Source: Bacillota bacterium (GTDB lineage: Bacteria > Bacillota > Dethiobacteria > DTU022). From it: a stretch of DNA of 44,702 nucleotides. Below the pieces are notes generated by a model that saw only the letters and a program-made list of their open reading frames with translations, was not told the DNA's origin and did no database searches. This document shows, in pieces, positions 25,598 through 43,254 of this stretch. Every line of letters begins with the position of its first letter. Position 1 is the first letter of the stretch. Location of the stretch: the NCBI GenBank assembly GCA_012840855.1, contig DUVX01000009.1:1-44702 (forward strand). Direction: 5' to 3'. Position numbers and translations under genes: made by a program.

Positions 25598-25610
25598 CCC
25601 CCCGCTCCGG

Positions 25611-26318
25611 TTAACATAAACCTGATATTGTGATCCACCGGAATGCTTCATCTTCGTCGAACTCCTCCATGCCGCCTTCAAAAAGCAGATCGGCCAGGTG
25701 AAAGCTGGGATGCAGCGGTTTTTCAACAGTGCTCGGTATGGCGATGCAGAGCATGCCGCCGCTTTTGGCAGCCTCCACCCCCTGCGTGGAGTCTTCGATG
25801 ACCACACAGCTTTCCGGCGAAAGGGCCAGGCGGCGGGCGCTCTCCAGGAAAACCTGCGGATCGGGCTTGCCGCGCTTCACCTCTTCGGAGGAGATGATAT
25901 GGGAGAAGCAGCCCTTTAGCCCGGTAATGGTAAGCAGCTCGTCGATCACCGCCGGCGATGAACCGGATGCCAGGGCCAGGGGGTAGCCCTCCTCGCTCAA
26001 TCTTTTTAGCAGGCGGACAGTCTTAGGAAAGGTCTCGATTTCTCGCCTGGCCATCTCCAGGTAGTAGCTGTTTTTTTTCTTCAGCAGCCTGGCCGGCGTT
26101 TCGGGAAGATCATATTTATCCCGGATTATCTTCATCATGTCTAAATTCCCGCAGCCGATATATTCTTTCTTCATCTCCCGGGTAAATTCGATACCATATT
26201 CCTGCAACATCCTCTGATCGGCTCTGAAGTAAAATTTTTCACTGTCGATCAAAATCCCATCAAGATCGAAGATAACCCCTCGAATTTTAATGATCGCTGG
26301 CGCTCTATTTTTAGACAA
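25611..26318 (-). CDS. HAD-superfamily phosphatase / beta-phosphoglucomutase-like
   Basis: IRGVIFDLDGILIDSE, LALASGSSPAVIDELL, SSEEVKRGKPDPQVFLESARRLALSPESCVVIEDSTQGVEAAKSGGM. Confidence 0.9.
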   Translation of the reverse strand: MSKNRAPAIIKIRGVIFDLDGILIDSEKFYFRADQRMLQEYGIEFTREMKKEYIGCGNLDMMKIIRDKYDLPETPARLLKKKNSYYLEMARREIETFPKTVRLLKRLSEEGYPLALASGSSPAVIDELLTITGLKGCFSHIISSEEVKRGKPDPQVFLESARRLALSPESCVVIEDSTQGVEAAKSGGMLCIAIPSTVEKPLHPSFHLADLLFEGGMEEFDEDEAFRWITISGLC

Positions 26319-26345
26319 ACAACCCGCTCCTAACGATAAATAGTA

Positions 26346-28019
26346 CTACCCTATTTTTTCTTCTACCAGGTTTTCACATTCCCTGCAGCATAGCTGCCGC
26401 ACCTTTTCTTTTACCCTCGGGATCGAAGGGGCGCTCATGCTCAGTTCGCGAATGCCCAGGCCCAGCAGCAGCTCTGTCGCTGCAGGATCACCGGCCATTT
26501 CACCGCAGACCCCTACCGGTATTCCCGCCTTCGCCGCCCCCTCCACGGTCAGGCGAATCAGGCGGAGTACGGCTGGATGAAAGGGTTGGTAGTAGCGAGA
26601 TACTTTTTCGTTCATCCTGTCTACGGCAAGAGTATACTGAATCAGATCATTTGTACCGATGCTAAAAAAATCGACTTCCCGGGCAAGGCGATCGGCGATC
26701 AAGGCCGCTGAAGGGATCTCGATCATAATCCCCACCCCAGCAGTCTCATTAAAGGGGACCCCTTCTTCCCGTAGCTCTGTTTTGGCCCTGTCCAGAATAT
26801 CGTTGGCCGCCCGGAGATCCTCCAGCCCCGAGATCATGGGATACATGATCTTAACATTGCCGTAATTGGCCGCCCGGAGAATCGCTTTCAGCTGCGTGAT
26901 AAAAAGAGCATGGCGATCGAGGCAAAACCTGATTGCGCGCCACCCCAAAAAAGGGTTCAGCTCGGCAGGGAAGTCGAGGTAGGGTAGATTTTTATCGCCG
27001 CCGATATCGAGGGTCCTGATGATGACAGGCGCATCACCAAAGGAGGCGGCAACCTCCCTGTAGGCGGCGAACTGCTCTTCCTCGGAGGGTTTTTCTTTCC
27101 GCCCCATGAATAAGAATTCTGTCCTGAAGAGCCCCACGCCGCAGGCCCCGTACTTCCTGGCAGCGGCGATATCGAAGCTGGATCCGATATTGGCTTTGAG
27201 CAGCACCAGGCAGCCGTCTTTCGACTCCGCCGGTAGATCCCTGAGCAGCGCCAGTTTCTTCATTCTCTCTTGATAAATCGCCAACCTTTCCCGGAAAAGG
27301 GTCTCCTCTTGCTCCCCAGGGTTGACAATCACCTCGCCCTTCTCACCATCCACCAGGATCCGCTCCCGCGGGGATACCGCATCCGTGATCCCCGTTGCGC
27401 CGACCACGGCGGGTATCTCCATAGAGCATGCCATGATCGCGGTATGGGAAGTCCTTCCTCCAGCTTCAGTAACGAAACCGAGCACCTGCTCCCGATCCAG
27501 CAGGGCGGTGGCCGAGGGGGGAAGATCAGCAGCCACAACGATAACTTTTTCCTCCAGACTTTCCAAAGGGTTCAACTCTACGCCTAGAAGATTGGCCAGC
27601 AGCCTTTGCTGTACGTCGGCGATATCTGCGGAGCGTTCCTTCATGTAATCATCATCCAACGCTGCAAAAAGATTAATATATTCATGAAAGGTCTCGTCGA
27701 CGGCGGCAGGAGCAGACTTTTTCTCTTTTTCAATCTTCGTATTGATTTTTACTGCAAGATCGGGATCATCCAGGATCATGATGTGAGCCTCGAAGACCGC
27801 CGCTTCTTCCGATCCGATTGTCCGCGCCACCCGCTCTTTTATCTCCATCAGCTGGCGTCGGCTTTCCGTGAAAGCTTTCACCAGGCGGCGTTTTTCCCCC
27901 GCCACTTCTTCCAGAGAGAGCCGCTTGTCATCGTATTCCAGGCTTGCCTCTTTATAGACCAGGACTTTCCCCATTGCCAGCCCCGGCGAAACACCGATCC
28001 CTTTGATTGAACAACTCAT
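26346..28019 (-). CDS. ptsI: PTS Enzyme I (phosphoenolpyruvate-protein phosphotransferase)
   Basis: GIGVSPGLAMGKVLVY, GGRTSHTAIMACSMEIPAVVG (active-site His), VGLFRTEFLFMGR, IRTLDIGGDKNLPYL, FFSIGTNDLIQYTLAVDR, VCGEMAGDP. Confidence 0.96.
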   Translation of the reverse strand: MSCSIKGIGVSPGLAMGKVLVYKEASLEYDDKRLSLEEVAGEKRRLVKAFTESRRQLMEIKERVARTIGSEEAAVFEAHIMILDDPDLAVKINTKIEKEKKSAPAAVDETFHEYINLFAALDDDYMKERSADIADVQQRLLANLLGVELNPLESLEEKVIVVAADLPPSATALLDREQVLGFVTEAGGRTSHTAIMACSMEIPAVVGATGITDAVSPRERILVDGEKGEVIVNPGEQEETLFRERLAIYQERMKKLALLRDLPAESKDGCLVLLKANIGSSFDIAAARKYGACGVGLFRTEFLFMGRKEKPSEEEQFAAYREVAASFGDAPVIIRTLDIGGDKNLPYLDFPAELNPFLGWRAIRFCLDRHALFITQLKAILRAANYGNVKIMYPMISGLEDLRAANDILDRAKTELREEGVPFNETAGVGIMIEIPSAALIADRLAREVDFFSIGTNDLIQYTLAVDRMNEKVSRYYQPFHPAVLRLIRLTVEGAAKAGIPVGVCGEMAGDPAATELLLGLGIRELSMSAPSIPRVKEKVRQLCCRECENLVEEKIG

Positions 28020-28095
28020 TGCTTTCACCCCACGGCATGGACTCTTCTTCCAACGGCGCTCGATTTCCCGGCCGGGACGAACCGCAGCCCCGGCC

Positions 28096-29016
28096 CTAAA
28101 AAGCAAAAATATTGCTGGGATTCTCCACAGTGATCTGACGGATACTGTCTTCGGCTATCCCCTTTTTCCTCATCAGGGGGATAAATCCCTTTTGAAGATG
28201 TTCAAAGCCCGGGCAGCCGCCATATGATTTAAGGTACGATCGCCGGCCCTGGTCACCAGAGAGAAGTATTCTAGCCCCATAACCCTCTTCGATCAACTGC
28301 TTCACTATTTCAACCCTCAGCTCATCGGGGTAGTATTTTACCTTGCCGATATTATCCAGTTGAACGTAGACCCCAGTTTGGGCAATCATCAAGATATAAC
28401 CCAGATAGAGGGTGTTGTTGTCGAGATGGCCGATGACGACATTATTCAGGTTAACCCCTTCCGACTCTAAAAGCTCGATAATATTTAAAACCATGGTGCC
28501 ACCGGTTGTATGGGTGGTAATGGGAGCACCGGTCTCCAGATGGGCCTTGCAGGCAGCCCGCGCCGCTTTTTTCTCTGCTTCGCTGAACTTGTTTTGGCTG
28601 GCTCCAATCTTGATCACGCCGGCCCTGATCCCAGTATCTTCAATCCCCTCTTCAACATCACAGATAAATTTTTCGGTCAGCTCCGCTTCGGTGAGATTGA
28701 AAAATTCCCTGGGGAAATAGCTCTCTTTGATAAAACCGGTAGCGCAGATAATATGAACGCCCGTCGCCCGGGATATCTTTTTGATGCTGCGGACATCCCG
28801 ACCGTAGCCCGGCGTGCTCACCTCAGCGATGGCGCCGCCGCCGACCGCTTTAAAGCTCTCCACCTCTTGAAGGGCATTTTCATAGCTGTCCAGCCTGAGA
28901 TCGAGATCGGGACTGACCTCTACAGGGGGAAAGGTAAAAAGATGTTCGTGGGGCAGCGTGAGCCCCAGCTCCTCCGGGGGAATATCTCCCAAAACAGTGC
29001 GGACTCGCTTCGCCAA
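28096..29016 (-). CDS. Phosphotriesterase-family (COG1735) metal-dependent hydrolase / lactonase-like
   Basis: GLTLPHEHLF, AGVIKIGAS (carboxylated Lys), ITTHTTGG, VIGHLD, ILLSGDQGR: full set of binuclear-site ligands. Confidence 0.88.
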   Translation of the reverse strand: MAKRVRTVLGDIPPEELGLTLPHEHLFTFPPVEVSPDLDLRLDSYENALQEVESFKAVGGGAIAEVSTPGYGRDVRSIKKISRATGVHIICATGFIKESYFPREFFNLTEAELTEKFICDVEEGIEDTGIRAGVIKIGASQNKFSEAEKKAARAACKAHLETGAPITTHTTGGTMVLNIIELLESEGVNLNNVVIGHLDNNTLYLGYILMIAQTGVYVQLDNIGKVKYYPDELRVEIVKQLIEEGYGARILLSGDQGRRSYLKSYGGCPGFEHLQKGFIPLMRKKGIAEDSIRQITVENPSNIFAF

Positions 29017-29048
29017 CCAAACCAGCTCCTTAAATTTTCTACGCTTTG

Positions 29049-29079
29049 TGGGACAACAAGGACCGTCCCTCCTGTCCCA
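29049..29079. repeat. Palindromic element TGGGACA-N17-TGTCCCA within the operon
   Basis: tgggacaacaaggaccgtccctcctgtccca, in the gap between the PTE-family and HPr genes; contains the GACCGTCCC core seen in other repeats. Confidence 0.65.
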
Positions 29080-29097
29080 TGTTCCAGCGGATATCTT

Positions 29098-29373
29098 CTA
29101 GGTGTCTTCCTCTACCAGTTTTTTTTCGATGAATAGCGCAAGTTCCTCAACAGCAGCCGGCGCGTCGTCGCCGCGGGCCTTCAGTACGATGCTGCTCCCC
29201 TGTTTTGCCCCCAGGCTCATCACCCCGAGAATACTTTTCGCCTGGACCTCCTTGTCATCATAGAGAATCATGATCTCAGATTTAAATTTGCTGGCCTCTT
29301 TTACAAATAATGAGGCCGGGCGGGCATGAAGGCCGCTTTCGTTTTGAACTGTCACTTTTTTTTCGTAGACCAT
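29098..29373 (-). CDS. ptsH: HPr-family phosphocarrier protein
   Basis: NESGLHARPASLFVKEASKF (phospho-His), VQAKSILGVMSLGAKQGSSI (regulatory Ser region). Confidence 0.95.
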   Translation of the reverse strand: MVYEKKVTVQNESGLHARPASLFVKEASKFKSEIMILYDDKEVQAKSILGVMSLGAKQGSSIVLKARGDDAPAAVEELALFIEKKLVEEDT

Positions 29374-29394
29374 AACCCTTTTCTCCCCTTATTC

Positions 29395-30261
29395 TCAGCC
29401 TGCTTTTATCCTTTCAACACATTCCCGTAAAGCCTCCCGCCAGTGGCCGGGGCCTGCTTTAAAAGTTCTTTCATACGCCAGAGCATTAAACACTGTATAA
29501 TGCGATCTCCTGGCCTTTTTGATCACGGATTTCACGGGTATCAGCAGACGCGTATCGAGGCCGCAGAGCGTGGCCAGCTCCCAATAAAGATCATAGCGGG
29601 AGGCTTCACCGCTGCTGGAAACATTGTAGATACCGTAAAGTTCTGTCTCCATCATTCTTTCGATTACCCGGGCTACATCGAGGGTGTGAGTGGGCGAGCA
29701 GATCTGATCCGTCGTCGCCTCTACCTTTTCACCTTTTTGCAGCAGGCTCACCGTCTGCTGGAGGGGATTATTCTCTTTCCGCCCTCCGCGGCCGAAGAGA
29801 AAGGGCAGCCTTAAGATGAAAAATTCTCCAAGCAGGGCCGTGATCTCTCCTTCTGCCTTGAGCTTGCTGTAGCCGTAAAAATTCACCGGATCGGTAGGGC
29901 AAAACTCTGTAACCGCCCTTTTCCCCCCGCCGCTGTAAACATAATCTGTGCTGATATGAATCATCGCCGCATCGTAAAGCCTACAGGCTAAAGCCACATT
30001 TTTGGCCCCCAGTGTATTGATCAGCAGGGCCCTTTCTTGATTCTCTTCGCAGCCGTCCACATCCCGCCATCCCGCAGTGTGCACCACCATGTCTGGCCTC
30101 TCCGCCTTAAATAAACTCAAAACTGATTGGGGCACGGTGACATCGAGCTCTACCGCTGGAGACCCGGTGATATCAACGGGGATAAGCTCATGTTTTTTCT
30201 GCAAGACCTCGACAACATCCTCGCCCAGCATTCCGCGGGCTCCGGTGACTACAACCTTCAA
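29395..30261 (-). CDS. RmlD-like extended SDR (dTDP-4-dehydrorhamnose reductase family)
   Basis: VVVTGARGMLGEDVVEVL, HISTDYVYSGGG, NFYGYSKLKAEGE. Confidence 0.85.
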   Translation of the reverse strand: MKVVVTGARGMLGEDVVEVLQKKHELIPVDITGSPAVELDVTVPQSVLSLFKAERPDMVVHTAGWRDVDGCEENQERALLINTLGAKNVALACRLYDAAMIHISTDYVYSGGGKRAVTEFCPTDPVNFYGYSKLKAEGEITALLGEFFILRLPFLFGRGGRKENNPLQQTVSLLQKGEKVEATTDQICSPTHTLDVARVIERMMETELYGIYNVSSSGEASRYDLYWELATLCGLDTRLLIPVKSVIKKARRSHYTVFNALAYERTFKAGPGHWREALRECVERIKAG

Positions 30262-30263
30262 TT

Positions 30264-31511
30264 TTAACCCGCCTCCCTCCTGCGGTAACCCCCCAGCAAA
30301 CGGCAGTATTCTGGATTCTCCAACAAGCGCTCCGGGGAAGGCAGCCGATCCAGCGTGACTTCATTTCTGATCAAAGTGTGGAGCAGACCGATGCCCTGCA
30401 GGTTGCCAAGAAAGGCGGCACCGGTTATCCTATTGTCGCCCAGGTAAATTTTCTTCAAAGATCCTTCCGCTTTAAGACTCACCGCCTCTTCGGTGCGCAC
30501 CCCGATGACAGCAAGGGCCTCCCCGCCCACTTCGAGCACGTTCATCGGAACGGTACCGGCAAATGTTTTATTGCCCCCCCCCATATTCGATCCCGCCACT
30601 TTGCCCTGTGCAAAGGCCGCCGGCCAGATGGCGTTGACCAGGTTCTCCTTCCTGACCCGATCGTAAGCCTGGGCCACATCCCCGGCAGCATAAACCCCGG
30701 GGGAGCTGGTCTCCATCCTGTCGTCGGTCAAAATGCCCTTCCCGGCAGCTATCTCCGTGCCCTCCACAAGCTCTTTGTTGGCGATAACCCCTTTCCCCAC
30801 AACGATAAGCTGTGCCGGAATAGATTCTCCCGTGTTCAGCTCCACTCTCTCCACCCGCTCCTCGCCCCGGGCAGCAAGGAGATCACAGTTTTTGTAGATC
30901 CGGTAACCCCCCTCACGCAGTAGCGCCTCTTCGAGGAGCTGGGCGACTTCTTCGTCGACGAGACGCGACAGCAACCGACTGGAGCTGATGATCAGGGAGA
31001 CTCTCAGGCCGAGCTTTCGGAGGGCCCATGCCGAGCGCATGCTGATGGGCCCGCCGCCGAGAATGACGGCATCTTTTTTCCCCTGTGCATAGCGGCGGAT
31101 TTCGGCGGCGTCCCGCAGTGATCGCAATACTGATACACCCCTCAGTGCCGCTCCGGGAAAAACAGCAGGACGAGGGCGCCCTCCCGTGGCGATCAAAAGC
31201 CGGTCATATTCTAAAAGAGCACCGCTCTCGAGAAGAACTTCCTTCTTGTCGGTATATACCTTTACAGCAGCATCGTTGTAAATAACCTTTACCCCGCGGT
31301 CCCGGTAAAATGCCTTTTCCCTGAGGTAAAGCCTCTCCAGGGGCAGCTCGCCGGCGATATAATTGGGTGTGAGTACAGGAGAGTAGGCGGGCTCTCCTTC
31401 TTTGGTGACGATGGTGATGCTTCCGTTGGGATCGATTTTTCTGAGAGCTTCTACTGCACTAATTGCTGCTATACTATTGCCGATGATCAGATACAGCCCG
31501 CCCACCTCCAA
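30264..31511 (-). CDS. FAD/NAD(P)-dependent oxidoreductase (pyridine nucleotide-disulfide type; AorC-like candidate)
   Basis: LYLIIGNSIAAISAVEALRKID, YDRLLIATGGRPR, DAVILGGGPISMRSAWALRKLG, PGVYAAGDVAQAYD. Confidence 0.88.
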   Translation of the reverse strand: MEVGGLYLIIGNSIAAISAVEALRKIDPNGSITIVTKEGEPAYSPVLTPNYIAGELPLERLYLREKAFYRDRGVKVIYNDAAVKVYTDKKEVLLESGALLEYDRLLIATGGRPRPAVFPGAALRGVSVLRSLRDAAEIRRYAQGKKDAVILGGGPISMRSAWALRKLGLRVSLIISSSRLLSRLVDEEVAQLLEEALLREGGYRIYKNCDLLAARGEERVERVELNTGESIPAQLIVVGKGVIANKELVEGTEIAAGKGILTDDRMETSSPGVYAAGDVAQAYDRVRKENLVNAIWPAAFAQGKVAGSNMGGGNKTFAGTVPMNVLEVGGEALAVIGVRTEEAVSLKAEGSLKKIYLGDNRITGAAFLGNLQGIGLLHTLIRNEVTLDRLPSPERLLENPEYCRLLGGYRRREAG

Positions 31512-31521
31512 TTTTAGGTAG

Positions 31522-31546
31522 GGGTTGGCGCCTATGGCGCCAACCC
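31522..31546. other. Perfect 11-bp-stem, 3-nt-loop intercistronic hairpin
   Basis: gggttggcgcc-tat-ggcgccaaccc between the UlaA-like EIIC and FAD oxidoreductase genes. Confidence 0.85.
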
Positions 31547-31557
31547 TTTTCTACTGA

Positions 31558-32835
31558 TTAGCTGAACAGGTTCATGATCCAGCCGAGAATCAGGCTGATG
31601 AACCCTGTATCCGGGTAATCCATCGCCAGGGCATTGGCGGTGAGAAATCCTCCGGTATGGGGATAGGCCAGCGCCCAGATGAATTGCACCACTATTCCAA
31701 CCAGAAAGGGGACCAACAGGGCAGCCCTTCTGCCCCCGAATTTATCGGCAAAGACACCGAGCAGAGCGCCGTCCCAGAAGTCCATAAAGACGCTGGGCAG
31801 AACGATCACCGGCAAGCCGGCCAGAAGCTGTAGTAGCGTGCCCACGATAGCCCCGAAGAGCTTGGAGAAAAAGCCCACAAAAACCGCCGTGGGGGAAAAA
31901 TGGTAAACCGTAGGATAATCAAGGGCGAGAACGGCGCCCGGGATCACCCGTTTGGCGATACCCTGGAAGGCCGGCACTATCTCACCGAGGAGCATTCTCA
32001 CCCCGTACAGGACGACGGCAACACCGGCGGAGAATTTGACACCGTGTAGGATCAGGAAAATAATCCAGTTCTGCCCGCCAGTGGATTCGGCCACAACTGC
32101 AGGACCGGCCAGCAGCCCCAGAGCAAACCATAGCACCGAACCGAAGATAGCGATGCTGACGACGCTGTCACGAACCCAGTTCAGCCTGTCGGGAACCTCG
32201 ATATCCTGGAAATTTTTCCGAGGGTCCCCGATGAGCGGGCTGAGCCAGGAGGTCAGTGCAATACCGCTGACGTTGGGCATGCACAGCGAGTAATCAGCGG
32301 TGAGCTTATCCTTCATGAAGTGCCTGATGATCGAGGGTGTCAGCCAGTACTGGAGAGCACAGAATACCCCGGCCACGATAACCAGTGCCGTGCTGCCCAG
32401 ACCGAAGCCAGCGAGGAAAGTTGTGGCCCAGGCGGCGAAAAGCAGCATGATATGGCCGGTTATATTGACACCCTTCAGGGGGGTAATGCGGGCCAGCAGC
32501 AGGTTCAAAGCAAAACCGATCAGCAAAGCCGTACCGATGACGCTACCATATTCGGCCATGCCGGTACTCAGAACGGCCCACATGGTCGGCTGGACACCTT
32601 CCACACCGAGAATCGCATTGATCCAGGCAGCGATGGGGGTCACCACAGCCGTAAGCAATTCCGCTCCCGTTGTCAAAATGAGGAAACCGATCATGGTCTT
32701 GGCTACACCGACAACGACATCTTCGATGGGTTTTTTAAGCAAGATAAGGCCGATCAGAGCGACGATAGCAAAGAGTATTACCGGTTCACCGATTACTTGA
32801 GTAGCGATAATCTCCAATATTGACACAGTCTTCAC
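31558..32835 (-). CDS. PTS ascorbate-type EIIC (UlaA/SgaT family)
   Basis: ~10 TM segments; KKPIEDVVVGVAKTMIGFLILTTGAELL, ITPLKGVNITGHIMLLFA, MDFWDGALLGVFADKFGGRRAALLVPF. Confidence 0.88.
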   Translation of the reverse strand: MKTVSILEIIATQVIGEPVILFAIVALIGLILLKKPIEDVVVGVAKTMIGFLILTTGAELLTAVVTPIAAWINAILGVEGVQPTMWAVLSTGMAEYGSVIGTALLIGFALNLLLARITPLKGVNITGHIMLLFAAWATTFLAGFGLGSTALVIVAGVFCALQYWLTPSIIRHFMKDKLTADYSLCMPNVSGIALTSWLSPLIGDPRKNFQDIEVPDRLNWVRDSVVSIAIFGSVLWFALGLLAGPAVVAESTGGQNWIIFLILHGVKFSAGVAVVLYGVRMLLGEIVPAFQGIAKRVIPGAVLALDYPTVYHFSPTAVFVGFFSKLFGAIVGTLLQLLAGLPVIVLPSVFMDFWDGALLGVFADKFGGRRAALLVPFLVGIVVQFIWALAYPHTGGFLTANALAMDYPDTGFISLILGWIMNLFS

Positions 32836-32844
32836 TCCTTTTGG

Positions 32845-33141
32845 TTAACTTTCTGCTTTTTTAATCTCCGGGATCAACCTTTCTTCTATTTCCCCTTCAT
32901 CGAGGAAATTGTCAATGGGCACGATCGTTTTAAATTTGTCAGCGCCGCGCATGGATCGCAGCACCTCCGGCGAAGCGATAAGGATGTCGGCTTCGTGGGA
33001 AGCACCCGCGAGCATATCGGCGACGTCAAGATCGGCCTTGATCCCGTTCTTTGACAGAACATTGTAGACACCGGTTTTCAGCATCAGGCTGGATCCGGCA
33101 CCACAGCCGCACACGATCAGTATCTTTAGTCTGCGCTTCAT
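32845..33141 (-). CDS. PTS EIIB, lactose/ascorbate (SgaB) type
   Basis: LKILIVCGCGAGSSLMLKTGVYNVL phospho-Cys loop. Confidence 0.9.
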   Translation of the reverse strand: MKRRLKILIVCGCGAGSSLMLKTGVYNVLSKNGIKADLDVADMLAGASHEADILIASPEVLRSMRGADKFKTIVPIDNFLDEGEIEERLIPEIKKAES

Positions 33142-33186
33142 GGTTCCCCTCCCTTCCGATAATTTTTTAGCTTTCAGTGTCCGTTT

Positions 33187-33957
33187 TTAAGAGACTGATT
33201 GGGGACGCTGCACCACCAGACTGGCACCATCAACGGGGAGGATCGCTCCGCTGATATAGTCGGCGAGGTTAGAGGCCAGGAACGCTACCGCATAGGCGAC
33301 CTCTTCAGCCCGGCCAAAGCGACGCAGGGGAATTTGCTCTAGTTTTTGATCAGCCCTTTCTCTTCTCAGTTTTTCGGTCATCGGTGTGATGATCGTCCCG
33401 GGAGCATAGGCATTAACCTGGATATTATAAGGACCCAGCTCGGCGGCGAGAATCTTTGTTAAAGTATTTACCGAAGCTTTCGATATAGAATAAGCCGTTA
33501 ATCCCACATCGGGGTAACCGCCGAGGATGGAGGAGGCGTTAATTATTTTCCCCCTCCGTTGCCTTTTCATAAAGGGGATCACCGCCTGACAGAGGTTCAC
33601 CATAGCCACAAGATTTATATCCAGGATCCTTTCCCAATGGGCCGGCGTCATATCTTCAAGGAAAGCGCGCTCCAGTATGCCGGCATTGTTGACCAAAATA
33701 TCGATGGTGCCATGCGCTTTGCCAATCCCGGCTGTCAGCTCCCTTACAGCATCCCTGTCGCGGAGATCGACCTGCTTGAAGATAAATCTGCCCGTGTTGA
33801 TCTCTTCAGGAAAGCCGGTGGATCCATCGTTTTTATCCAGACCGACAACTGTAGCCCCCAGCGCAAAAAGCTGTTTGCCGATAGCCCTTCCCATACCCTG
33901 CGCTACCCCAGTGACGATGGCAACCTTGCCGTTCAACTCGATCTTGATTTCGCTCAC
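33187..33957 (-). CDS. SDR-family oxidoreductase
   Basis: KVAIVTGVAQGMGRAIGKQLF, VNNAGI, INASSILGGYPDVGLTAYSISKASV (S-Y-K), NAYAPGTIITPM. Confidence 0.92.
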   Translation of the reverse strand: MSEIKIELNGKVAIVTGVAQGMGRAIGKQLFALGATVVGLDKNDGSTGFPEEINTGRFIFKQVDLRDRDAVRELTAGIGKAHGTIDILVNNAGILERAFLEDMTPAHWERILDINLVAMVNLCQAVIPFMKRQRRGKIINASSILGGYPDVGLTAYSISKASVNTLTKILAAELGPYNIQVNAYAPGTIITPMTEKLRRERADQKLEQIPLRRFGRAEEVAYAVAFLASNLADYISGAILPVDGASLVVQRPQSVS

Positions 33958-34418: not shown

Positions 34419-34432
34419 ATTCCGCCCTCCCC

Positions 34433-36286
34433 TCACCTTTCGATGCCCAGTGCTTCGAGTTTTTTATCCGGGGGGACGCCTGTCTCTCTATCCCAGCCCC
34501 GCTCATCGTAGTAGTCGTCAAGGATTTTCTCGAAATCCGCTTCGGTAATAACCTTTTCCTTATAGTAGTCTTCTGTACGCAGTTCTCCCTCCGGTGAATG
34601 CATAGGCCTGAGCCAGAGACGGGGCGGCCGGTCGTCCTTTCTGCGAAACCCTTCCCGGACATTAGCCAGCTTCTTGAAATTGAAAGCCCTTTCGCCTGCT
34701 CTCATCAGATCACCCGAGCTCATCTCTATACCGGTCACGGCCGAAAAGATATTGGCCACCCAGTCCATATTTTCCAGGCCGAAAGCAGAGTACATGGAGC
34801 AGACGCCGAGGCTGTTGCGCACGGCCATGGCATCCTCCATCCATTTGGTGTACCGACCCACGTTAAGCCTGCCGCTGTGGGCAGTGGGAGCGAAGATCCT
34901 CTCCATGGCCTCCGGAGGCAGTCCCCAGGTATCCAACTGCTCCCTGATCTCGTCCACATCCTTACCCAGGCCCGTGGTAATAGTATGATTGCCGCCATGA
35001 TGCGGCCGGGGATTGGTGAAAAAAGTCATCATCAAGGGGTGCAGCTTCGCTGCCCGCGCATCATAGATAAAGTCGACGCCCTTGCAGATCCCCGCATACC
35101 AGTAGTCCTGCGGATCGAGGCCCAACTCCTCTCCGATAGGGTTCCAACCCTCAGCCAGAATATCTCCCACGCCCTCACGGTTCACGGTCTTAGACAGAAG
35201 CTGCAGATAGTGATCGTAGCTCCTCTGCAATTCATCGTTAAAGCGGTCGTCCGCTATCTTTCCTTGCTCGCTGCTGGCGGTAACCCAGTCCACGAGCCTG
35301 GTGAAGGAGTAGAAATCGATCCCCGCCCGGTTGGCCAGGGAGACGAGGTGAAGCATTTTGCGGTGATCTTCCACATCCAACAGCTGGCCCGAGGTAGCGC
35401 TTTTCCCGTAGGGCGAGCCCATTCCCACCTCTCCGGCATATTTACCGGTCCCGATCCGCCACTTGACCCGGCAGCTGATCCGGCACGAACTGCAGCCAAT
35501 GATCTTGTCAAGCGTCTCCAGCCTTTTTTTCTCGCCGTAGAGACTGTCCCATTTTTCCCGAGTCCATTTGCCGGGGTACTGGGTATAGCGAAAGATCGGC
35601 CAGCCGGCGCCCATGCCGAGCTTAAGCCAGTTGTCCAGGTTGTCCCATCCCTGGGCCTTCGCTTCGGCCAGCCGGACATACTTTTCATAACGCTGGGGAT
35701 CTTTTACACTGATCCCCCGTTCGCCCTTTACCACAATCGCTTTAAGATTCTTGGAACCGAAAAGAGCACCCAGGCCGCTGCGGCCCAGGGAATTGGTCAT
35801 ATCGACCACCGCAAAAGCATAGCGGACCAGATTCTCCCCGGCGGGACCGATGGCAGCACACCCGCATTCGCTGCCGTACTTTTGTTTAAGAAGGCCCGTC
35901 GTCTCTTCGGTGCTCTTGCCCCAGAGAGCAGCGGCGTCACAGATCTCCACCTCGCCGTTGTCGACCACCAGATATACTGGACTTTCAGATTTGCCGCTGA
36001 TAACGATATGCTCACAGCCGGCGTTCCGCATCATCAGGCCAAAGTCGCGTCCTCCACTCACCGAAGAGCCGACAAAATGTTTCTTCTCATCGGCAATAGC
36101 AGGAAATTTAGCCGTCCCCGCTATCTTCGAAGCGCCGGGTGCAGCTGTCCCCACCAGCGAGCCGACGCTGATAATAATCGGATTCTCTGGAGCAAAAGGG
36201 TCAACCCCCGGCGGAAGCAGCTTATAGATCAGCTCCCAGGCCACCGCTACCCCGCCGAGGGCGCTCCCTGGTAACATGTTTTCCAC
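34433..36286 (-). CDS. Aldehyde ferredoxin oxidoreductase (AOR) family tungsten-type enzyme; true N-terminus probably extends to ~36346
   Basis: GSLVGTAAPGASKIAGTAKFP, SGGRDFGLMMRNAGCEHIVISGKSESPVYLVV, GRSGLGALFGSKNLKAIVVKG, CSSCRISC cluster motif, NSLGVC. GTG start in the track; homology-like KILQIDLSNRTT lies in frame upstream. Confidence 0.9.
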   Translation of the reverse strand: MENMLPGSALGGVAVAWELIYKLLPPGVDPFAPENPIIISVGSLVGTAAPGASKIAGTAKFPAIADEKKHFVGSSVSGGRDFGLMMRNAGCEHIVISGKSESPVYLVVDNGEVEICDAAALWGKSTEETTGLLKQKYGSECGCAAIGPAGENLVRYAFAVVDMTNSLGRSGLGALFGSKNLKAIVVKGERGISVKDPQRYEKYVRLAEAKAQGWDNLDNWLKLGMGAGWPIFRYTQYPGKWTREKWDSLYGEKKRLETLDKIIGCSSCRISCRVKWRIGTGKYAGEVGMGSPYGKSATSGQLLDVEDHRKMLHLVSLANRAGIDFYSFTRLVDWVTASSEQGKIADDRFNDELQRSYDHYLQLLSKTVNREGVGDILAEGWNPIGEELGLDPQDYWYAGICKGVDFIYDARAAKLHPLMMTFFTNPRPHHGGNHTITTGLGKDVDEIREQLDTWGLPPEAMERIFAPTAHSGRLNVGRYTKWMEDAMAVRNSLGVCSMYSAFGLENMDWVANIFSAVTGIEMSSGDLMRAGERAFNFKKLANVREGFRRKDDRPPRLWLRPMHSPEGELRTEDYYKEKVITEADFEKILDDYYDERGWDRETGVPPDKKLEALGIER

Positions 36287-36348
36287 ATTATCAACCGCGG
36301 TAGTGCGGTTGCTCAGATCAATCTGCAGTATTTTCCTGGCGCTGATCG

Positions 36349-37029
36349 TTAACCCCTCCCTTCGTATGCCTCCGTGATCTTCGCTCCCGAGCTCGTTCCG
36401 ATGCGATCAGCCCCCGCGCTAATTACAGCAAGGGCATCCTCCGGCGTCCTGATACCGCCGGCCGCCTTAACCTTGACGTGGTCGGCGGCATAACGCCGCA
36501 TATGCCGCACATCTTCAGCGCTGGTGGGGCGAATGGGGAAACCTTTGAAGCCGGTGGAAGACTTGACATAATTGGCCCCCGCTTCGCTGGCAAGGATGCA
36601 GGCCATCTTCGCCTCTACCGGTGTCAGTAGCGAGATCTCAATAATCACTTTGACGGTCTTTCCTCCACTGGCGGCGATTACCGCTTCGATATCGCGCTTG
36701 ACCAGATCGACATGCCCGGCTTTCAGCGCCCCGATGTTCATCACCATATCGACTTCGTCGGCTCCGTTTTCAACGGCATCAGCGGCCTCCACCGCCTTCG
36801 CCTCCGGCGTAATACTGCCTAACGGAAAGCCTACGGCAGCACAGACCATGACCTCGCTACCCTTCAGGCAGGCGGCGGCATGGGCTATATTGCAGGGCAG
36901 GATGGCCACAGAAGCAAAGTTGTATTTTCTAGCTCTTGCACACAGCTCTTCGATATCTTTTTTAGTGGCCAGGGGGTCGAGCAAGGTCTCATCAAAAATC
37001 CTGGCCAGCTTCTCTTTGGTTAATTCCAT
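36349..37029 (-). CDS. deoC: Deoxyribose-phosphate aldolase, canonical active site
   Basis: ADEVDMVMNIGAL, ANYVKSSTGFKG (Schiff-base Lys), VKVKAAGGIRTPEDALAVISAGADRIGTSS (second Lys). Confidence 0.93.
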   Translation of the reverse strand: MELTKEKLARIFDETLLDPLATKKDIEELCARARKYNFASVAILPCNIAHAAACLKGSEVMVCAAVGFPLGSITPEAKAVEAADAVENGADEVDMVMNIGALKAGHVDLVKRDIEAVIAASGGKTVKVIIEISLLTPVEAKMACILASEAGANYVKSSTGFKGFPIRPTSAEDVRHMRRYAADHVKVKAAGGIRTPEDALAVISAGADRIGTSSGAKITEAYEGRG

Positions 37030-37053
37030 GATGGGAAGATCCTCCTTATTTTC

Positions 37054-37752
37054 TTATTCAGGAAGCATTACGCCGAGAACGTGATAGGGCGCGCTGGTGG
37101 CGACTCGTTGGGCACCAGCGACCAGGAAATCGAGAGTCTGCTGCCGGGTCCGCGCACCCCCCGCGACCATTATCTTGAGCTCCTCAGCTTTGAAATGTTC
37201 CCGGATCAACTGCACATCCCGCAGCTTCGTGTTAGCTCCAAAACCGGGGTTCGTCTTCACAAAATCTGCACCGCCGTCACGAGCCAGTTTGCAGGCTTGC
37301 AGGATCTCTTCGTCGGTGAGGCCGTCGCAATGGATAACCATCTTAACAATTTTCCCTCCGGCCAGTTTGACCAGGGCAGCGACCTCTTTTTCTATCGCTG
37401 CAAACTCCCCTGATCTCAGGGCGCCGATATCCATCCCTACGTCCATCTCGTCCGTCCCTTTCTCTAGCGCCATCTCCGCATGCTTAAGCTTGACCGCCGT
37501 GGTCAGGCCCCCCAGGGGATAGGCGATGGTGGTCACCACATCCACCCCCGTATCAGCCAGGACTTTGACGGCTAGATCGGTGAAAACGAGATCCACACCG
37601 ATGCCGGCAAAAGGATAACGGCTGGCCTTAATCAGAAATTCCTTCACCTCTTGAGCTGTGACATCGGGCTTGATAATCGAAGTATCAAGGTACCGGGCCA
37701 GCTCTTCCGGTGTCTGGGGCAAATCTTTTGTCAACAAACCAATCCCTCCCAT
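37054..37752 (-). CDS. DeoC-family aldolase paralog with altered active site
   Basis: TDEMDVGMDIGAL, ADFVKTNPGFG (Schiff-base Lys retained), LKIMVAGGARTRQQTLDFLVAGAQRVATSA (second Lys position is Met). Confidence 0.88.
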   Translation of the reverse strand: MGGIGLLTKDLPQTPEELARYLDTSIIKPDVTAQEVKEFLIKASRYPFAGIGVDLVFTDLAVKVLADTGVDVVTTIAYPLGGLTTAVKLKHAEMALEKGTDEMDVGMDIGALRSGEFAAIEKEVAALVKLAGGKIVKMVIHCDGLTDEEILQACKLARDGGADFVKTNPGFGANTKLRDVQLIREHFKAEELKIMVAGGARTRQQTLDFLVAGAQRVATSAPYHVLGVMLPE

Positions 37753-37833
37753 AGTTTTTATTACACTGTTTTAATGGCACCCACCGCTATCGGGTGCAAA
37801 ATTTATCCGGGAATCCCCCCGTCTTCAGGGGCA

Positions 37834-38154
37834 CTACCCGTCAAGTTTCTCCAGTATTTCCACCTTGATCCGCTCCTTTTCCCCGGAAAAAAGGCCGGTC
37901 ACAGTGACCACCGGAACATCGGTCAACCCCATATCACCGGGTAGGGTGATCGTTGTCAGCAGCAGATCGATCTGGTCAATCTTATCCTTGAGATCGCCAA
38001 GGCCGCCCTTGATCAGCTCGCAATTGTAGGGGCTTGCCCTCAATATTTCCTCCACGGTTGGAGCAACGAGCGTAGAGGAAGCGATGCCCGAGCCGCAGAC
38101 CAGCATTACCTTCTTTCGAATTTTTCTTTGTTTCTTCAACAAAACTACCCCCAT
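37834..38154 (-). CDS. PTS EIIB, galactitol (GatB) type
   Basis: KVMLVCGSGIASSTLVAPTVEEIL phospho-Cys loop. Start could be internal. Confidence 0.88.
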   Translation of the reverse strand: MGVVLLKKQRKIRKKVMLVCGSGIASSTLVAPTVEEILRASPYNCELIKGGLGDLKDKIDQIDLLLTTITLPGDMGLTDVPVVTVTGLFSGEKERIKVEILEKLDG

Positions 38155-38190
38155 AATCTTGAAGGGAGGGGAGGTAAATCCCCTCCCACT

Positions 38191-39606
38191 TTATTCTTGT
38201 CGCCTTAACTCGTCAGCATATTCGCGTGGCCTTTTCCGAACCACGTAGAAGACAATGATCCATACTGCCAGGAGTAAAAGCGCCCAGAAGAGCATGGTCG
38301 AAGAGCCCACGCCCTTAATGAAAGAGGCGATGGCCAGGAAAATAAAGATGAAAAAGTTGCTGCCCACCGTAATCGATGTTACCTGGGCCGCCGCCACCTC
38401 GAAACCGACATAATCCACTATGGCCATGCTGGCCGGGACAATCACGTTGGAAAGAATGAGCGCCAGCGGCAACCAGATCAGAGTGGCGTTAAGCAGTCCC
38501 CGGAAAAGGTTGCCCCGATTGGTATTCACTGCAAAGACGGAGAAAAATATCATATAAGCGGCTGCATCGGCCAGCGGCAGCACATTGTTGCCGGGTAACA
38601 GCAGCGACACCAGGTAGACGATCGGAGCCAGCAGAACACCCAAAGCGATATGCTCAGTTTTGCCTACTACCACAGCTACATCGAGGCCAACGTAGAACTC
38701 ACGGCCAGGCATCCGTTTCATGATAAATTCTCGGATGCTCTCCGAAAGCGGGGCCAACCCCATCACAATGAGCTCGGCTGCCCGGGGGAGCAGCACCATG
38801 AAAAAGCCCAGGGAAAGAGAGAGGGTGATCGTCTTCGCAGCCTGGTCACCAAACGTACCTACTTCCCCATAGCCCAAAAATGCCAGTCCGCCGAAGAGAA
38901 GGCCCACCGCAAAACCGATGATGATCGGCTCTCCCAGAAGGCCGTACCTTTCGCGCAGGGTGCTGGGATCAAGCTCAATATCCCTGATCCCCGGAATCCG
39001 ATCCCAGACCCTGTCCATAAAAAATCCGAAAGGGGCGTACTGCACGGAATGGGCATGGGGTATTGAGATATTGGGCATGCCGTAGTAAGGCTCGATCATG
39101 GGAGCTGTCCAGTCTGCCAGTTTTAAAGTCAAAAGCCAGAACAGAATTCCGCTGATAATGCCTAGAACCCAGCTCTCTGTGGTGACATAGACAGCTAATA
39201 TAGTAAAGACAAAAATCCAATGGTTAAAAAAGTCAACATTCAGGGTCTTGGTAAAACCGATGATCACCAGAAGGGCATTGACAAGAATGAACAGAGCGAT
39301 AGCACCCATGGCGAAGGGCGCGGCGAAAGTTATACCGGAGAATACTGGCCAACCTACATCGGGAATAGAGAGACCAACACCGTAGCGCATACCCATAATC
39401 TCACCGGCCTCCCCGATGAGACCGACCACTACATTGATCAGGGCCAGGAGGGCGGTGAATCCGACAGCCATGCGTAAAGCACAAAGCAGGGTTGTTCTGA
39501 GGGGTGCCCGGAAGATTAAGCCTAAAATAATGATAGCGATCGGCACCACTACCACTGCGCCCATATTGAGCAGCCATTCAAAAATGCCTAGAAGTGATTC
39601 AACCAA
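38191..39606 (-). CDS. PTS EIIC, galactitol (GatC) type
   Basis: Long multi-TM protein; SIPHAHSVQYAPFGFFMDRVWDRIPGIRDIELDPSTLRERYGLLGEPIIIGFAVGLLFG is characteristic of GatC. Confidence 0.9.
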   Translation of the reverse strand: MVESLLGIFEWLLNMGAVVVVPIAIIILGLIFRAPLRTTLLCALRMAVGFTALLALINVVVGLIGEAGEIMGMRYGVGLSIPDVGWPVFSGITFAAPFAMGAIALFILVNALLVIIGFTKTLNVDFFNHWIFVFTILAVYVTTESWVLGIISGILFWLLTLKLADWTAPMIEPYYGMPNISIPHAHSVQYAPFGFFMDRVWDRIPGIRDIELDPSTLRERYGLLGEPIIIGFAVGLLFGGLAFLGYGEVGTFGDQAAKTITLSLSLGFFMVLLPRAAELIVMGLAPLSESIREFIMKRMPGREFYVGLDVAVVVGKTEHIALGVLLAPIVYLVSLLLPGNNVLPLADAAAYMIFFSVFAVNTNRGNLFRGLLNATLIWLPLALILSNVIVPASMAIVDYVGFEVAAAQVTSITVGSNFFIFIFLAIASFIKGVGSSTMLFWALLLLAVWIIVFYVVRKRPREYADELRRQE

Positions 39607-39679
39607 TTCCTGATCCCCCCTTTTTAATGCAATTGTTACAATCCGCTGTTACCACACCCACACCTGCCCCATATGCACC

Positions 39680-40144
39680 TCAATCATCACCTCCAGCCAG
39701 ATGTTTGATCGCTTCTAAAATCTCTTCCAGCGTCCCGGAAAAGAGCAGCTCCCTGGAGCTGTCGTTTTTTAGTAAATAAGTAACCTCCTGTAGCAGAACC
39801 AGGTGCGAATCTTTGTCCCTGGTGGCAAAACCAAGCACTATTTTTACCGGATCATTTTTTTCGTGTCCGAAACAAAGGGGTTCTTTTAAGCGAACCAGGC
39901 TCAGCCCCAGATCGTTGACCTTGTTCTTATCGGGCCGGGCGTGGGCCAACGCTATCCCGGGAATAATAACGATATAAGGCCCCAGCTCCTCCACCATACC
40001 GATCATGTCATCGATATACTCCTCCGTGACTTTACCGCCCCGGCAAAGAAGTTCACCGCTTTTTCTGATCGCCTCACGCCACCCAGCGGCCGCCACATCC
40101 AGAGCGATCATCTCTTCTGTTAGTACCTGCTCCAGCAAAGGCAT
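39680..40144 (-). CDS. PTS EIIA, fructose/mannitol-type domain (GatA/UlaC-like)
   Basis: GIALAHARPDKNKVNDLGLSLVRLKEPLCFG phospho-His region; start ATG 40144 with RBS ggaggga (track start 40162). Confidence 0.88.
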   Translation of the reverse strand: MPLLEQVLTEEMIALDVAAAGWREAIRKSGELLCRGGKVTEEYIDDMIGMVEELGPYIVIIPGIALAHARPDKNKVNDLGLSLVRLKEPLCFGHEKNDPVKIVLGFATRDKDSHLVLLQEVTYLLKNDSSRELLFSGTLEEILEAIKHLAGGDD

Positions 40145-40237
40145 TCCCTCCCATTGCAGCAAATCGATCTTTGGTATGCCGCTTTATTCTATCCTGATAT
40201 TAAATAGATAAGGTTTTCAGACTCACCAGTCTATAGT

Positions 40238-40253
40238 TGCAATTTGCATGCCA
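40238..40253 (-). promoter_or_regulatory. Sigma-54 (-24/-12) promoter TGGCATGCAAATTGCA driving the PTS/AOR operon
   Basis: Minus-strand TGGCATG-N4-TTGCA fits TGGCACG-N4-TTGCW, with GG-N10-GC spacing; in the gap between the regulator stop and EIIA start; the adjacent gene encodes a sigma-54 activator. Confidence 0.82.
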
Positions 40254-40270
40254 GCCTCCGGCAGGAATAG

Positions 40271-43138
40271 TTAACTCCTGGTCAAGCAGTCCCGGATCAT
40301 CTCCCAGCGCCCGGCCTTTTTAATCAGGTCCACATTGTCCATGAGGTTGCGATGCAGCTTCTTAAAATGGCTCACGCCCAGCTCCTTCAGGGCCACCATG
40401 CAGACTATCTCCACCTCTTTTTCACTCCAGAGCAGCGGTTTTTCCAGGGCGGCAAGGGCCACCTGGGAATAATAGACATGCCGCGGGTCGGCGTGAGGGA
40501 TAACGACACCATTACCCACGTAGGTAGGCCCCCACTGTTCCCGCTCTAGCACCGCAGCCGGGTAACTTTTTTTGACCGCTCCCGACTGAAATAGCCGCCC
40601 GGCCATTTTTTCAATAATCTCTTCCGGGGAATGGGCTCGCAGTTGGGGAAAAAATATTTCATGAGAAAAAAGCCCCTCCAAATTCATCTCTTTCAGATCT
40701 TTATGGTCAAAAGAGATTGCTTTCATAAAGCGGGCTATCCCCTCATCGGAAAAAATCTCCGGTATGGGGAAAAACCTTTCCGGATCGCCCAGTTCAGGCC
40801 TTAAATTGCCCACGACACAGAGCAGCTCTCCACCGCGCTCCAGCCTCCGGATCAGTTTGTTAAGGTCCTCGCCGATAAGGCTGGCAACCTGAAATCGGTA
40901 CCGCTCCTCAATGCCCGGTAGCCGGTGAATCAAGTAATCCCTGATCCGCTGGGCCGCTCCTTCTCCCGTAGTACAGAAAAGCAGAATCGTATGACCGCTG
41001 CTTCTCTTTTTCTCCGTAAATTTCACCCCTTCGAGCTGCCTTACAATTGCCTCCACCGGCAGCTGCTTGAACTTTGAAAGGCGGATGGCGTCCATGAGCA
41101 TCACCGTATCCACCCGGGGGACTACTATTGTCTCCAGGCCTGTTTTCTCCCTGATAATGGGGCCAAAAGCAGCCAGAGAGCCCATATCCACGAGCAGGAG
41201 AACCTCACTGTTTCTATCGAAGTTTTTTACCCTTCCAACGATCTGCTTCTGGATCTCTGTGGGGCTTTCATCCATCTCCATATCGATGGCATGGGCATTC
41301 GAAGTACCCAAAAACCAGTTGGCTACCCTGAGCATATTCGAGGCTACCTTGCCATGGCAGGCTACAATGATCTCCACATTACCCGCCGGGAACTCCTCAA
41401 CCTGTTCCTGAACCAAGACGGCCTTCAGATAGACAGTGACGTAGCCCACCTCATCTTCCGGCAGCTCCAGCGAATAGTTGCGGGCAAAAAGCTCCGTTAT
41501 TTTGCGAGCGACCTCAAAAAGGTGGCTATCCTCCCTTTTTAGCCGGGCCAGATTGGGGCACACTATCCTTTTACCCGCCCGGATCCGCTGCAAAGCGGCA
41601 GTAAAATGAAGCCCCAGGGCATATTTCAGTTCCCTTTTAAAAACCAATTCAGGGATCTCTTTCTGCGCAAGGAGCTGAACCTCGTTGATCAGATCCACCA
41701 TCTCCTCCCCTACTATTTCTGAGAAATAGCGGTCGTCCTGGAAACCTGCCCGGGTTTGTTTCAACAGCAAGTTTAACTTCTGCTCGATCTTCCTGTTCAG
41801 CTCCTCGCTGATCGCCTCTAGAGAAGCCCCTTCCTTTTTCATCTCCCTGCTTTTCTTTTCCATATAGCGGTAGATATCTTCGGAAATTCCATAAACATCC
41901 TGCTGCTCCCGCCGATCGCGCCCTTTCCATGAAGAAGGCTCAATAATCAGATCGTCCTTAAGGGTGGCGCTGACCTCTTTTCTCCTTGCCGGCTGCTCCA
42001 GTATATTTCTCCTGATCATGCGGGGCAGGGTATCCGGGGATATCTCCACGTTTTCCTTTTCCCCGGTTACGTAAAGAAGGTAGGCTCTGGCGCAGGCAAC
42101 TTTTAGATCACCCTCGAGCTGGCCAACATTGCTGGCGGGGTTGTAATTGAGCAGGGACCGGCCGGCTTCATAGGACAGCGTAATGCTGTTGTTGATCTTG
42201 TTGCTTTCTGCCTGGATAAACAGTTTTATAAATTCCAGCTTCTCCCGTAGCGGCCTCTCCCCCAGCGGAGGCATCTCGATAATCATAGGGATACGCCTCC
42301 TAAAAGTAGCCAAAAGCTGGGATTCAATCTCTTCGGTGGTGGCCGCAATGATCATCACGTTCACCTTCTGAACTTCCTCCGTTTCGCCAAGCCTCCTGAA
42401 ACGGCCATGATCGATGATATTAAACAGCATCTCCTGACCCTCGGGCGGAAGGCGATGTACTTCATCCAGAAAGAAGATACCCCCATTGGCCCTATCGATC
42501 AGTCCCAATTTATCGCCAGTGGCTCCGGTAAAACTGCCCTTTTTATGCCCAAACAGGGTGGAATAGAGAAGCTGGGGATTATGAGCATAGTCGGCACAGT
42601 TAAAGACAACAAACTTTTCACCGGGTACTTTTCCAGATTTGACGGCAAAATCAAACATTTTTTGCGCCAGGTAGCTTTTACCGGTGCCTGTTTCCCCAAC
42701 AATTAGCGTATGCAGGCCCAGGGGCGGATAGAGCACTGCCGCCTTGGCTTGCTGAATTTGCGGCCTCAAGCTGCCCTCATGACCGATGATCGAGCTGAAC
42801 AGGCGCTCTTTCTCATTTTTAGCGTCTTTTGGACCCTTTCCCCGTAGCCGGTTGAACTCTTTGTTCACCAGATAGCGGGAGATCTGGTACCCTTTATCTT
42901 TCAGAAGCCTGGTGAGCTCCCTTGCCGAGATAGTAGGGTCTTTCCGAAAATATTCCTCCATATCGCGAAGCAAACTTTCCCGGCGCCGCTCCTGCGAGGA
43001 GCCTATGCACAGTTTTTTTCGGAAAACGACGACCTGTTCCCTGGAGATACCGAGTTTTTCTGCAATCTCCTGATCTGTTAACGGATTCTTGGGATCCTCT
43101 TTTTTGACAATATCCTTGAGAAATTTTTGCCTGCCCAT
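40271..43138 (-). CDS. LevR-like sigma-54-dependent activator with HTH, AAA+, PRD, EIIA-Man-like, EIIB-like and EIIA-Fru/Mtl-like domains
   Basis: Walker A VGETGTGKSYL, GSFTGA loop, FFLDEVHRLPPEGQEMLFNII; PRD LGLHFTAALQRI; EIIA-Man-like VACHGKVASNMLRVANWFLG; EIIB-like LLFCTTGEGAAQRIRDYL; EIIA-like YVGNGVVIPHADP. Confidence 0.92.
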   Translation of the reverse strand: MGRQKFLKDIVKKEDPKNPLTDQEIAEKLGISREQVVVFRKKLCIGSSQERRRESLLRDMEEYFRKDPTISARELTRLLKDKGYQISRYLVNKEFNRLRGKGPKDAKNEKERLFSSIIGHEGSLRPQIQQAKAAVLYPPLGLHTLIVGETGTGKSYLAQKMFDFAVKSGKVPGEKFVVFNCADYAHNPQLLYSTLFGHKKGSFTGATGDKLGLIDRANGGIFFLDEVHRLPPEGQEMLFNIIDHGRFRRLGETEEVQKVNVMIIAATTEEIESQLLATFRRRIPMIIEMPPLGERPLREKLEFIKLFIQAESNKINNSITLSYEAGRSLLNYNPASNVGQLEGDLKVACARAYLLYVTGEKENVEISPDTLPRMIRRNILEQPARRKEVSATLKDDLIIEPSSWKGRDRREQQDVYGISEDIYRYMEKKSREMKKEGASLEAISEELNRKIEQKLNLLLKQTRAGFQDDRYFSEIVGEEMVDLINEVQLLAQKEIPELVFKRELKYALGLHFTAALQRIRAGKRIVCPNLARLKREDSHLFEVARKITELFARNYSLELPEDEVGYVTVYLKAVLVQEQVEEFPAGNVEIIVACHGKVASNMLRVANWFLGTSNAHAIDMEMDESPTEIQKQIVGRVKNFDRNSEVLLLVDMGSLAAFGPIIREKTGLETIVVPRVDTVMLMDAIRLSKFKQLPVEAIVRQLEGVKFTEKKRSSGHTILLFCTTGEGAAQRIRDYLIHRLPGIEERYRFQVASLIGEDLNKLIRRLERGGELLCVVGNLRPELGDPERFFPIPEIFSDEGIARFMKAISFDHKDLKEMNLEGLFSHEIFFPQLRAHSPEEIIEKMAGRLFQSGAVKKSYPAAVLEREQWGPTYVGNGVVIPHADPRHVYYSQVALAALEKPLLWSEKEVEIVCMVALKELGVSHFKKLHRNLMDNVDLIKKAGRWEMIRDCLTRS

Positions 43139-43195
43139 TTTTCGGCTCCCTTCAACAGTTATAAGTACACCCAGATCGGATCCTTCTCCATCTGC

Positions 43196-43254
43196 TTAAC
43201 TATTCCTGCCGATATGCGGTGGCATGTTTTGTTAGTGCAACTAATTCTGCCACC
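43196..43254. promoter_or_regulatory. Putative regulatory region upstream of the sigma-54 regulator gene: 16-bp motif shared with the EIIA promoter region plus nested palindromes
   Basis: TTAACTATTCCTGCCG at 43196-43211 (reverse complement at 40259-40274); GGTGGCA (43218-43224)...TTAGTgcaACTAA (43232-43244)...TGCCACC (43248-43254). Confidence 0.55.

Follow-up and report, generated by a model that had tools for sequence, protein, structure and literature searches.

A candidate acquired catabolic island joining phosphotransferase import genes, DeoC-family aldolases and an AOR-family oxidoreductase in a Dethiobacteria genome

In the sugar-phosphate-utilising (SPU) microcompartment, DeoC is coupled to an aldehyde dehydrogenase inside a shell; in SPU loci, which also carry RpiB and mostly PduL, this dehydrogenase is proposed to form acetyl-CoA (Axen 2014, PMC4207490; Atribacteria, PMC6281690). 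This is the nearest known system to a 17-gene island in a stretch of 44,702 nucleotides, here called the window, from a Bacillota bacterium of lineage Dethiobacteria DTU022 (assembly GCA_012840855.1, contig DUVX01000009.1); the window corresponds to one entire contig (G000:C162) among the 177 that make up a 1.88 Mb draft genome. Like SPU loci, the island places DeoC and an aldehyde-handling enzyme in one locus, but it differs by its phosphotransferase system (PTS) import genes and a tungsten-family aldehyde oxidoreductase (AOR), and none of its 17 genes encodes a shell protein or an aldehyde dehydrogenase. The Ula (ascorbate) and Gat (galactitol) PTS operons have EIIC and EIIB families and PTS-linked regulation in common with the island, which nevertheless lacks either downstream enzyme set and combines the two EIIC types in a single operon that has an Enzyme I (EI) and HPr of its own. 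The AorABC enzyme of Aromatoleum aromaticum, in which four clusters relay electrons from the tungsten site to FAD and NAD (PMC6365974, PMC10413684), has the same catalytic, four-cluster polyferredoxin and FAD/NAD subunits, whereas in the island AOR the catalytic Glu and Thr are replaced and the genes are embedded in a PTS operon. With class I DeoC enzymes, the island DeoC shares Asp102, Lys167 and Lys201, and its paralogue keeps the fold family and Schiff-base lysine; the island differs in its two adjacent copies, in Met201 of the paralogue and in having a PTS in place of a kinase or nucleoside route. Literature searches that covered open but not subscription papers returned no described cluster of AOR, PTS and DeoC or another aldolase, so that the combination is apparently undescribed, as an earlier note on this DNA had also supposed.

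The gene set is a co-inherited unit, beyond chance, because two distant genomes also carry it with the local order preserved. When 399 genomes of the phylum were searched for the AOR, a single close match appeared, at 53%, in Firmicutes bacterium UBA3570 (G370), and a search among relatives of G370 gave a second, at 58%, in an uncultured Eubacteriales metagenome-assembled genome (MAG; G526); both fall in one class, other than that of the window. They were also the only close matches in a collection of 84,980 species, scanned with two short patterns by which divergent members may be missed. Recurring in both are EIIA, the UlaB/UlaA-type EII components, a DeoC-like paralogue, DeoC, AOR, a polyferredoxin, a short-chain dehydrogenase/reductase (SDR), EI, HPr and, weakly, an FAD oxidoreductase. 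The G370 cluster comprises an EIIA-containing PRD regulator, GatC, GatB, UlaB, UlaA, DeoC-like, DeoC, AOR, polyferredoxin, FAD oxidoreductase, SDR, EIIA, a HAD-family protein, GAPDH, EI and HPr. The G526 cluster comprises EIIA, UlaB, UlaA, DeoC-like, DeoC, AOR, polyferredoxin, FAD oxidoreductase, SDR and a PRD/EIIA regulator, with HAD, HPr and EI present but divergent; GatB and GatC, found in two of the three, are missing there. The order DeoC-like, DeoC, AOR, polyferredoxin is identical in the window, G370 and G526, and the three-cluster clades have support of 0.999 (DeoC-like), 0.978 (DeoC) and 1.0 (AOR). The earlier proposal that PTS import, DeoC-type aldolases and AOR belong to one unit is thus upheld; conservation of the neighbourhood, also expected, extends to these distant genomes but not to genus-mates, with GatB/GatC kept in part and an RmlD-like gene accessory. 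An AOR from G365 (41% identical) is not a member, its neighbourhood consisting of B12/radical SAM, symporter and hydantoinase genes. In G370, genes for a class II aldolase, a lactate-racemase-family protein and an old-yellow-enzyme-family protein adjoin HPr (L067, 3765-6733).

The cluster was acquired horizontally as one unit and is absent from genus-mates. In the three same-genus genomes examined (G001, G002 and G003), an RNaseH/TPR gene (24314-25597 in the window) and a DUF362 gene (43344-44498) lie tail to tail, ~30 to 60 bases apart, whereas in the window ~17.7 kb separates them; as the genus-level neighbour at this empty site, the DUF362 gene was rejected as a cluster member. Between these flanks lie the regulator and 16 collinear minus-strand genes (25611-43138), spaced by 2-81 nt or overlapping slightly, in the order that the earlier note had given and with a Pfam match over cut-off for 17 of 17. 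The G+C content of third codon positions (GC3) is 0.56-0.67 in all 17, vs 0.72-0.86 in nine measured flanking genes. HPr and EI were each detected once in the genome, both inside the island; of 42 family members searched, 37 gave no EI, all three genus-mates among them. In this family, PTS islands seem to be acquired with EI and HPr already included. A different PTS island in another member (L086, G014:C32, 8791-20000) has a sigma-54 activator, GatB/GatC, dehydrogenases, a BtpA/SgcQ family protein, an epimerase, HPr and EI.

The AOR, the 4x[4Fe-4S] protein and the FAD oxidoreductase look like one AorABC-type enzyme. Rather than acting as separate steps, the latter two, which the earlier note had listed individually, resemble the AorA and AorC subunits, their top or near-top structure matches (Table 1). 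Four Cys motifs are visible in the polyferredoxin by inspection, and the genes for all three proteins are contiguous in G370 and G526. Because the FAD protein is weakly conserved, the predicted assembly rests on family match and position. No MoaD-like aorD/aorE gene was seen in the island, unlike in A. aromaticum. Within the catalytic subunit, the FeS ligands equivalent to Pf Cys288, 291, 295 and 494 (CxxCxxxC plus a distal Cys) are present. Conserved second-shell residues of AOR enzymes are Thr243, Glu313, Tyr427 and His448, of which Glu313 and Thr243 are proposed for aldehyde oxidation (review, PMC12096430); in Pf AOR numbering, all three clusters have Met at position 243, Gly at 313, Tyr at 427 and His at 448. 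His448 is kept in 30 of 34 other AOR rows compared. The cluster enzymes also have a three-residue insertion beside the conserved His (PRPHHGG) and an invariant GKSATSGQ motif at the usual Glu position. The AOR frame probably starts at a non-standard ATC (36344-36346), 2 nt after the DeoC stop, because the open frame extends upstream of GTG 36286 through ISARKILQIDLSNRT, which matches homologue N-termini; a consensus base error is an alternative explanation of the ATC. A structure prediction from the three AOR sequences (pLDDT 38.7) was not used.

By family score and residues, DeoC is an ordinary deoxyribose-phosphate aldolase, complete in its catalytic residues. Its neighbour scores 151 bits against TIGR00126, over the cut-off, despite having Met in place of Lys201 in all three clusters, and carries KTN(P/T)G(F/Y)G where KTSTGF-type motifs are usual. 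Among the best 30 matches from the 399 genomes, only the cluster members combine Met201 with this motif, and they score 380-397 bits, with the next match at 203 or less. Matches in a plasmid search with the DeoC-like protein were all below 60% identity and, where annotated, were annotated deoC. Lys201 is normally needed for DeoC catalysis; a literature search on this residue found no paper. Two ordinary aldolases therefore cannot be assumed from these sequences, and the earlier description of tandem DeoC aldolases with an AOR stands in full for DeoC but not for the paralogue, which lacks Lys201, or for the AOR, which lacks Glu313.

With slightly better than even confidence, we propose that the locus is a self-contained, horizontally acquired catabolic island for import, oxidation and DeoC cleavage of a substrate, with the aldehyde passing to an AorABC-type enzyme. 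In the scheme that we infer, from substrate and reaction order to subunit assembly and regulation, EI and HPr, together with EIIA, EIIB and EIIC, would import and phosphorylate a reduced or deoxy sugar, with the UlaA-type system as the core entry and the GatC-type system as a second. Next, the SDR would probably oxidise the phosphorylated polyol or sugar, and DeoC would cleave a 2-deoxyaldose phosphate to acetaldehyde (or a homologue) and glyceraldehyde-3-phosphate, the latter for glycolysis; the presence of GAPDH in the G370 cluster is consistent with an aldolase yielding this product. The DeoC-like protein, which keeps the Schiff-base lysine but not Lys201, could either form heteromers with DeoC or, as a second enzyme, act on a related intermediate. 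The tungsten-family enzyme would then oxidise the aldehyde to acetate, sending electrons via four [4Fe-4S] clusters to its FAD/NAD subunit, and the PRD/EIIA sigma-54 activator would turn the operon on in response to how far the PTS is phosphorylated. The best support for this scheme comes by analogy from an island in another family member (L087, G019:C114, 3305-15621), which follows the same plan using an aldolase and a dehydrogenase that are not orthologous: it encodes an XdhC-type AOR maturation factor, a sigma-54 PTS activator, EIIA, HPr, EI, GatC, a Zn-dehydrogenase, a class II aldolase and a different AOR that shares just 29% identity. Several observations weigh against our proposal. The main doubt is the missing Glu313; with neither it nor Thr243 present in any of the three clusters, the AOR sequences do not justify assuming ordinary aldehyde oxidation. 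In addition, the FAD subunit is just 26-33% identical between clusters, three genes separate it from the polyferredoxin gene in the window, and the two EIIC types make the imported compound ambiguous.

By inspection, the phosphorylation residues are intact in EIIA (LAHARP His), both EIIB proteins (Cys), HPr (GLHARP) and EI (GGRTSHTAI and GVCGEM); the EI start is probably the ATG at 28019. The regulator has the LevR/DagR architecture (AAA+ with PRD and EIIA domains) but scores 430 bits against NCBIfam DagR, under the equivalog cut-off of 1400. A PTS-domain sigma-54 activator beside a -24/-12 promoter, as the earlier note had described, is indeed present: TGGCATGCAAATTGCA, ~95 nt upstream of the EIIA ATG (40144), is the sole exact sigma-54 consensus match in the 44.7 kb window, and rpoN lies elsewhere in the genome. 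Consensus sigma-70 matches were near chance (16 vs 11.9), terminator-like matches numbered 37 vs 21.8 expected and leader RNA folding was unremarkable (z -1.1). The expectation of a single promoter agrees with one clear sigma-54 promoter at the operon head. An exact 16-nt inverted duplicate, TTAACTATTCCTGCCG, occurs at 40259-40274 (-), at the stop codon of the regulator and a short distance upstream of the -24/-12 site, and at 43196-43211 (+), between the regulator and DUF362, with TGGCATG after both copies; it could be an activator site or a rearrangement trace. The PTE-family and RmlD-like genes, unmatched in the G370 and G526 clusters, are therefore accessory, and delactonisation, which the earlier note had included as a possibility, is not a core step. 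HAD-family genes are found in both of those clusters.

Table 1. Features of the island, with their positions in the window and the matches on which assignments are based.
Feature	Coordinates	Strand	Evidence
Whole acquired island	25598..43343	.	Bounded by two genes adjacent in three same-genus genomes
HAD phosphatase, beta-phosphoglucomutase/hexitol-phosphatase-like	25611..26318	-	PF13419; TIGR02009 150 bits vs 153
Enzyme I	26346..28019	-	TIGR01417 686 bits, over cut-off
Phosphotriesterase (PTE)-family (COG1735) putative phospho-lactonase	28096..29016	-	PF02126; top structure 3pnz
HPr	29098..29373	-	PF00381
RmlD-like SDR	29395..30261	-	PF04321; TIGR01214 210 bits vs cut-off 224
AorC-like FAD/NAD(P) oxidoreductase subunit	30264..31511	-	Top structure 8c0z_E (AorC) E 3e-44; best NCBIfam PadH
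UlaA-type EIIC	31558..32835	-	Top structure 4rp8 UlaA; kept in G370 and G526
UlaB-type EIIB, active Cys present	32845..33141	-	PF02302; kept in G370 and G526
Classical SDR dehydrogenase, YxxxK present	33187..33957	-	PF13561; 43-44% identical in G370 and G526
AorA-like 4x[4Fe-4S] polyferredoxin subunit	33954..34436	-	9mqx_E E 4e-34; 8c0z_C (AorA) E 1.5e-33
AOR-family catalytic subunit (AorB-like), distinct subfamily	34433..36346	-	PF01314/PF02730
DeoC, deoxyribose-phosphate aldolase	36349..37029	-	TIGR00126 236 bits vs cut-off 117; Asp102, Lys167, Lys201 all present
DeoC-like paralogue, KTNPGFG motif	37054..37752	-	Asp102 and Schiff-base Lys167 kept; Lys201 to Met
GatB-type EIIB, active Cys present	37834..38154	-	PF02302; kept in G370 only
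GatC-type EIIC	38191..39606	-	PF03611; top structure 9u82 GatC; kept in G370 only
EIIA (PTS_EIIA_2), phospho-His in LAHARP	39680..40144	-	PF00359 E 1e-28; kept in G370 and G526
-24/-12 sigma-54 promoter	40238..40253	-	Exact consensus match
LevR/DagR-type sigma-54 activator: AAA+ (Sigma54_activat), PRD, EIIA-man and EIIA_2 domains	40271..43138	-	Pfam

Among other explanations, it is possible, though unlikely, that this AOR subfamily does something other than oxidise the free aldehyde from the aldolase: its substrate might, for instance, be a phosphorylated or carboxylated aldehyde, or it might reduce an acid at a step before DeoC. The change of Glu313 to Gly and of Thr243 to Met in all three clusters, the PRPHHGG insertion and the GKSATSGQ motif all point in this direction, as does retention of Thr243 in 29 of 34 and Glu313 in 24 of 34 of the other AOR rows. 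Nevertheless, loss of Glu313 alone does not show new chemistry, because several other AOR branches lack this Glu too; moreover, the enzyme retains Tyr427, His448 and the Cys ligands of its FeS cluster, and the AorA- and AorC-like partners suggest normal electron flow to NAD. We entertain only tentatively, as a rather doubtful extension, that the DeoC-like protein and the AOR subfamily with its extra PHHGG segment jointly run a new reaction on a phosphorylated or modified aldol intermediate, which would be PTS-fed, new tungsten-family chemistry.

A variant of L-ascorbate or sugar-lactone catabolism, in which UlaA would import a lactone, the PTE homologue would open the phospho-lactone and later enzymes would degrade the sugar acid phosphate, is improbable. 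It would account for the UlaA/UlaB-type EII components and for the PTE homologue, which is nearest to 3pnz, has its metal-ligand motifs by inspection and matches the phospho-furanose lactonase model NF045706; that match, however, reaches 174 bits, far under the cut-off of 630, and the gene has no counterpart in the other two clusters. The UlaA-type EIIC, at 339 bits against NF006919, is likewise under the ascorbate-equivalog cut-off of 380, and no UlaD/UlaE/UlaF/UlaG-type gene occurs among the island genes, which sets the locus apart from Ula systems. It is similarly set apart from galactitol systems by a GatC-type EIIC at 300 bits against TIGR00827, under the cut-off of 542, and by the lack of a galactitol-phosphate dehydrogenase or tagatose aldolase among its genes. 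Still less probable is a mosaic in which at least two unrelated sugar operons share EI and HPr, with AOR and DeoC acting on different substrates: two EIIB/EIIC sets, a gene order that varies among the three clusters and the missing GatB/GatC of G526 would fit, but DeoC-like, DeoC, AOR and polyferredoxin stay together in every cluster and are co-inherited, and one clear promoter heads the operon. Finally, we give very little credence to an assembly or binning artefact that fused foreign DNA into a MAG contig. Such an event would be compatible with the GC shift in the island and the splitting of the MAG into 177 contigs; both flanks, however, match one locus that is contiguous in three genus-mates, and a chimera would not rejoin both sides of it.

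Elsewhere in the window, adjoining NuoF-type flavoprotein and [FeFe] hydrogenase genes (14339-17987) are a possible hydrogen outlet for reduced carriers, and an acyl-CoA synthetase with ATP-grasp and succinyl-CoA-ligase-like domains, probably ADP-forming (7736-9853), is a possible acetate/ATP link.

More broadly, if the proposed island pathway is correct, anaerobes would have a portable route, equipped with its own EI, HPr and regulator, in which sugar uptake by a PTS feeds straight into aldehyde metabolism by a tungsten enzyme. The mechanism proposed for AOR enzymes could be tested directly on a subfamily lacking the glutamate that is held to be catalytic, and a DeoC paralogue lacking Lys201 would test which residues the aldolase family needs.

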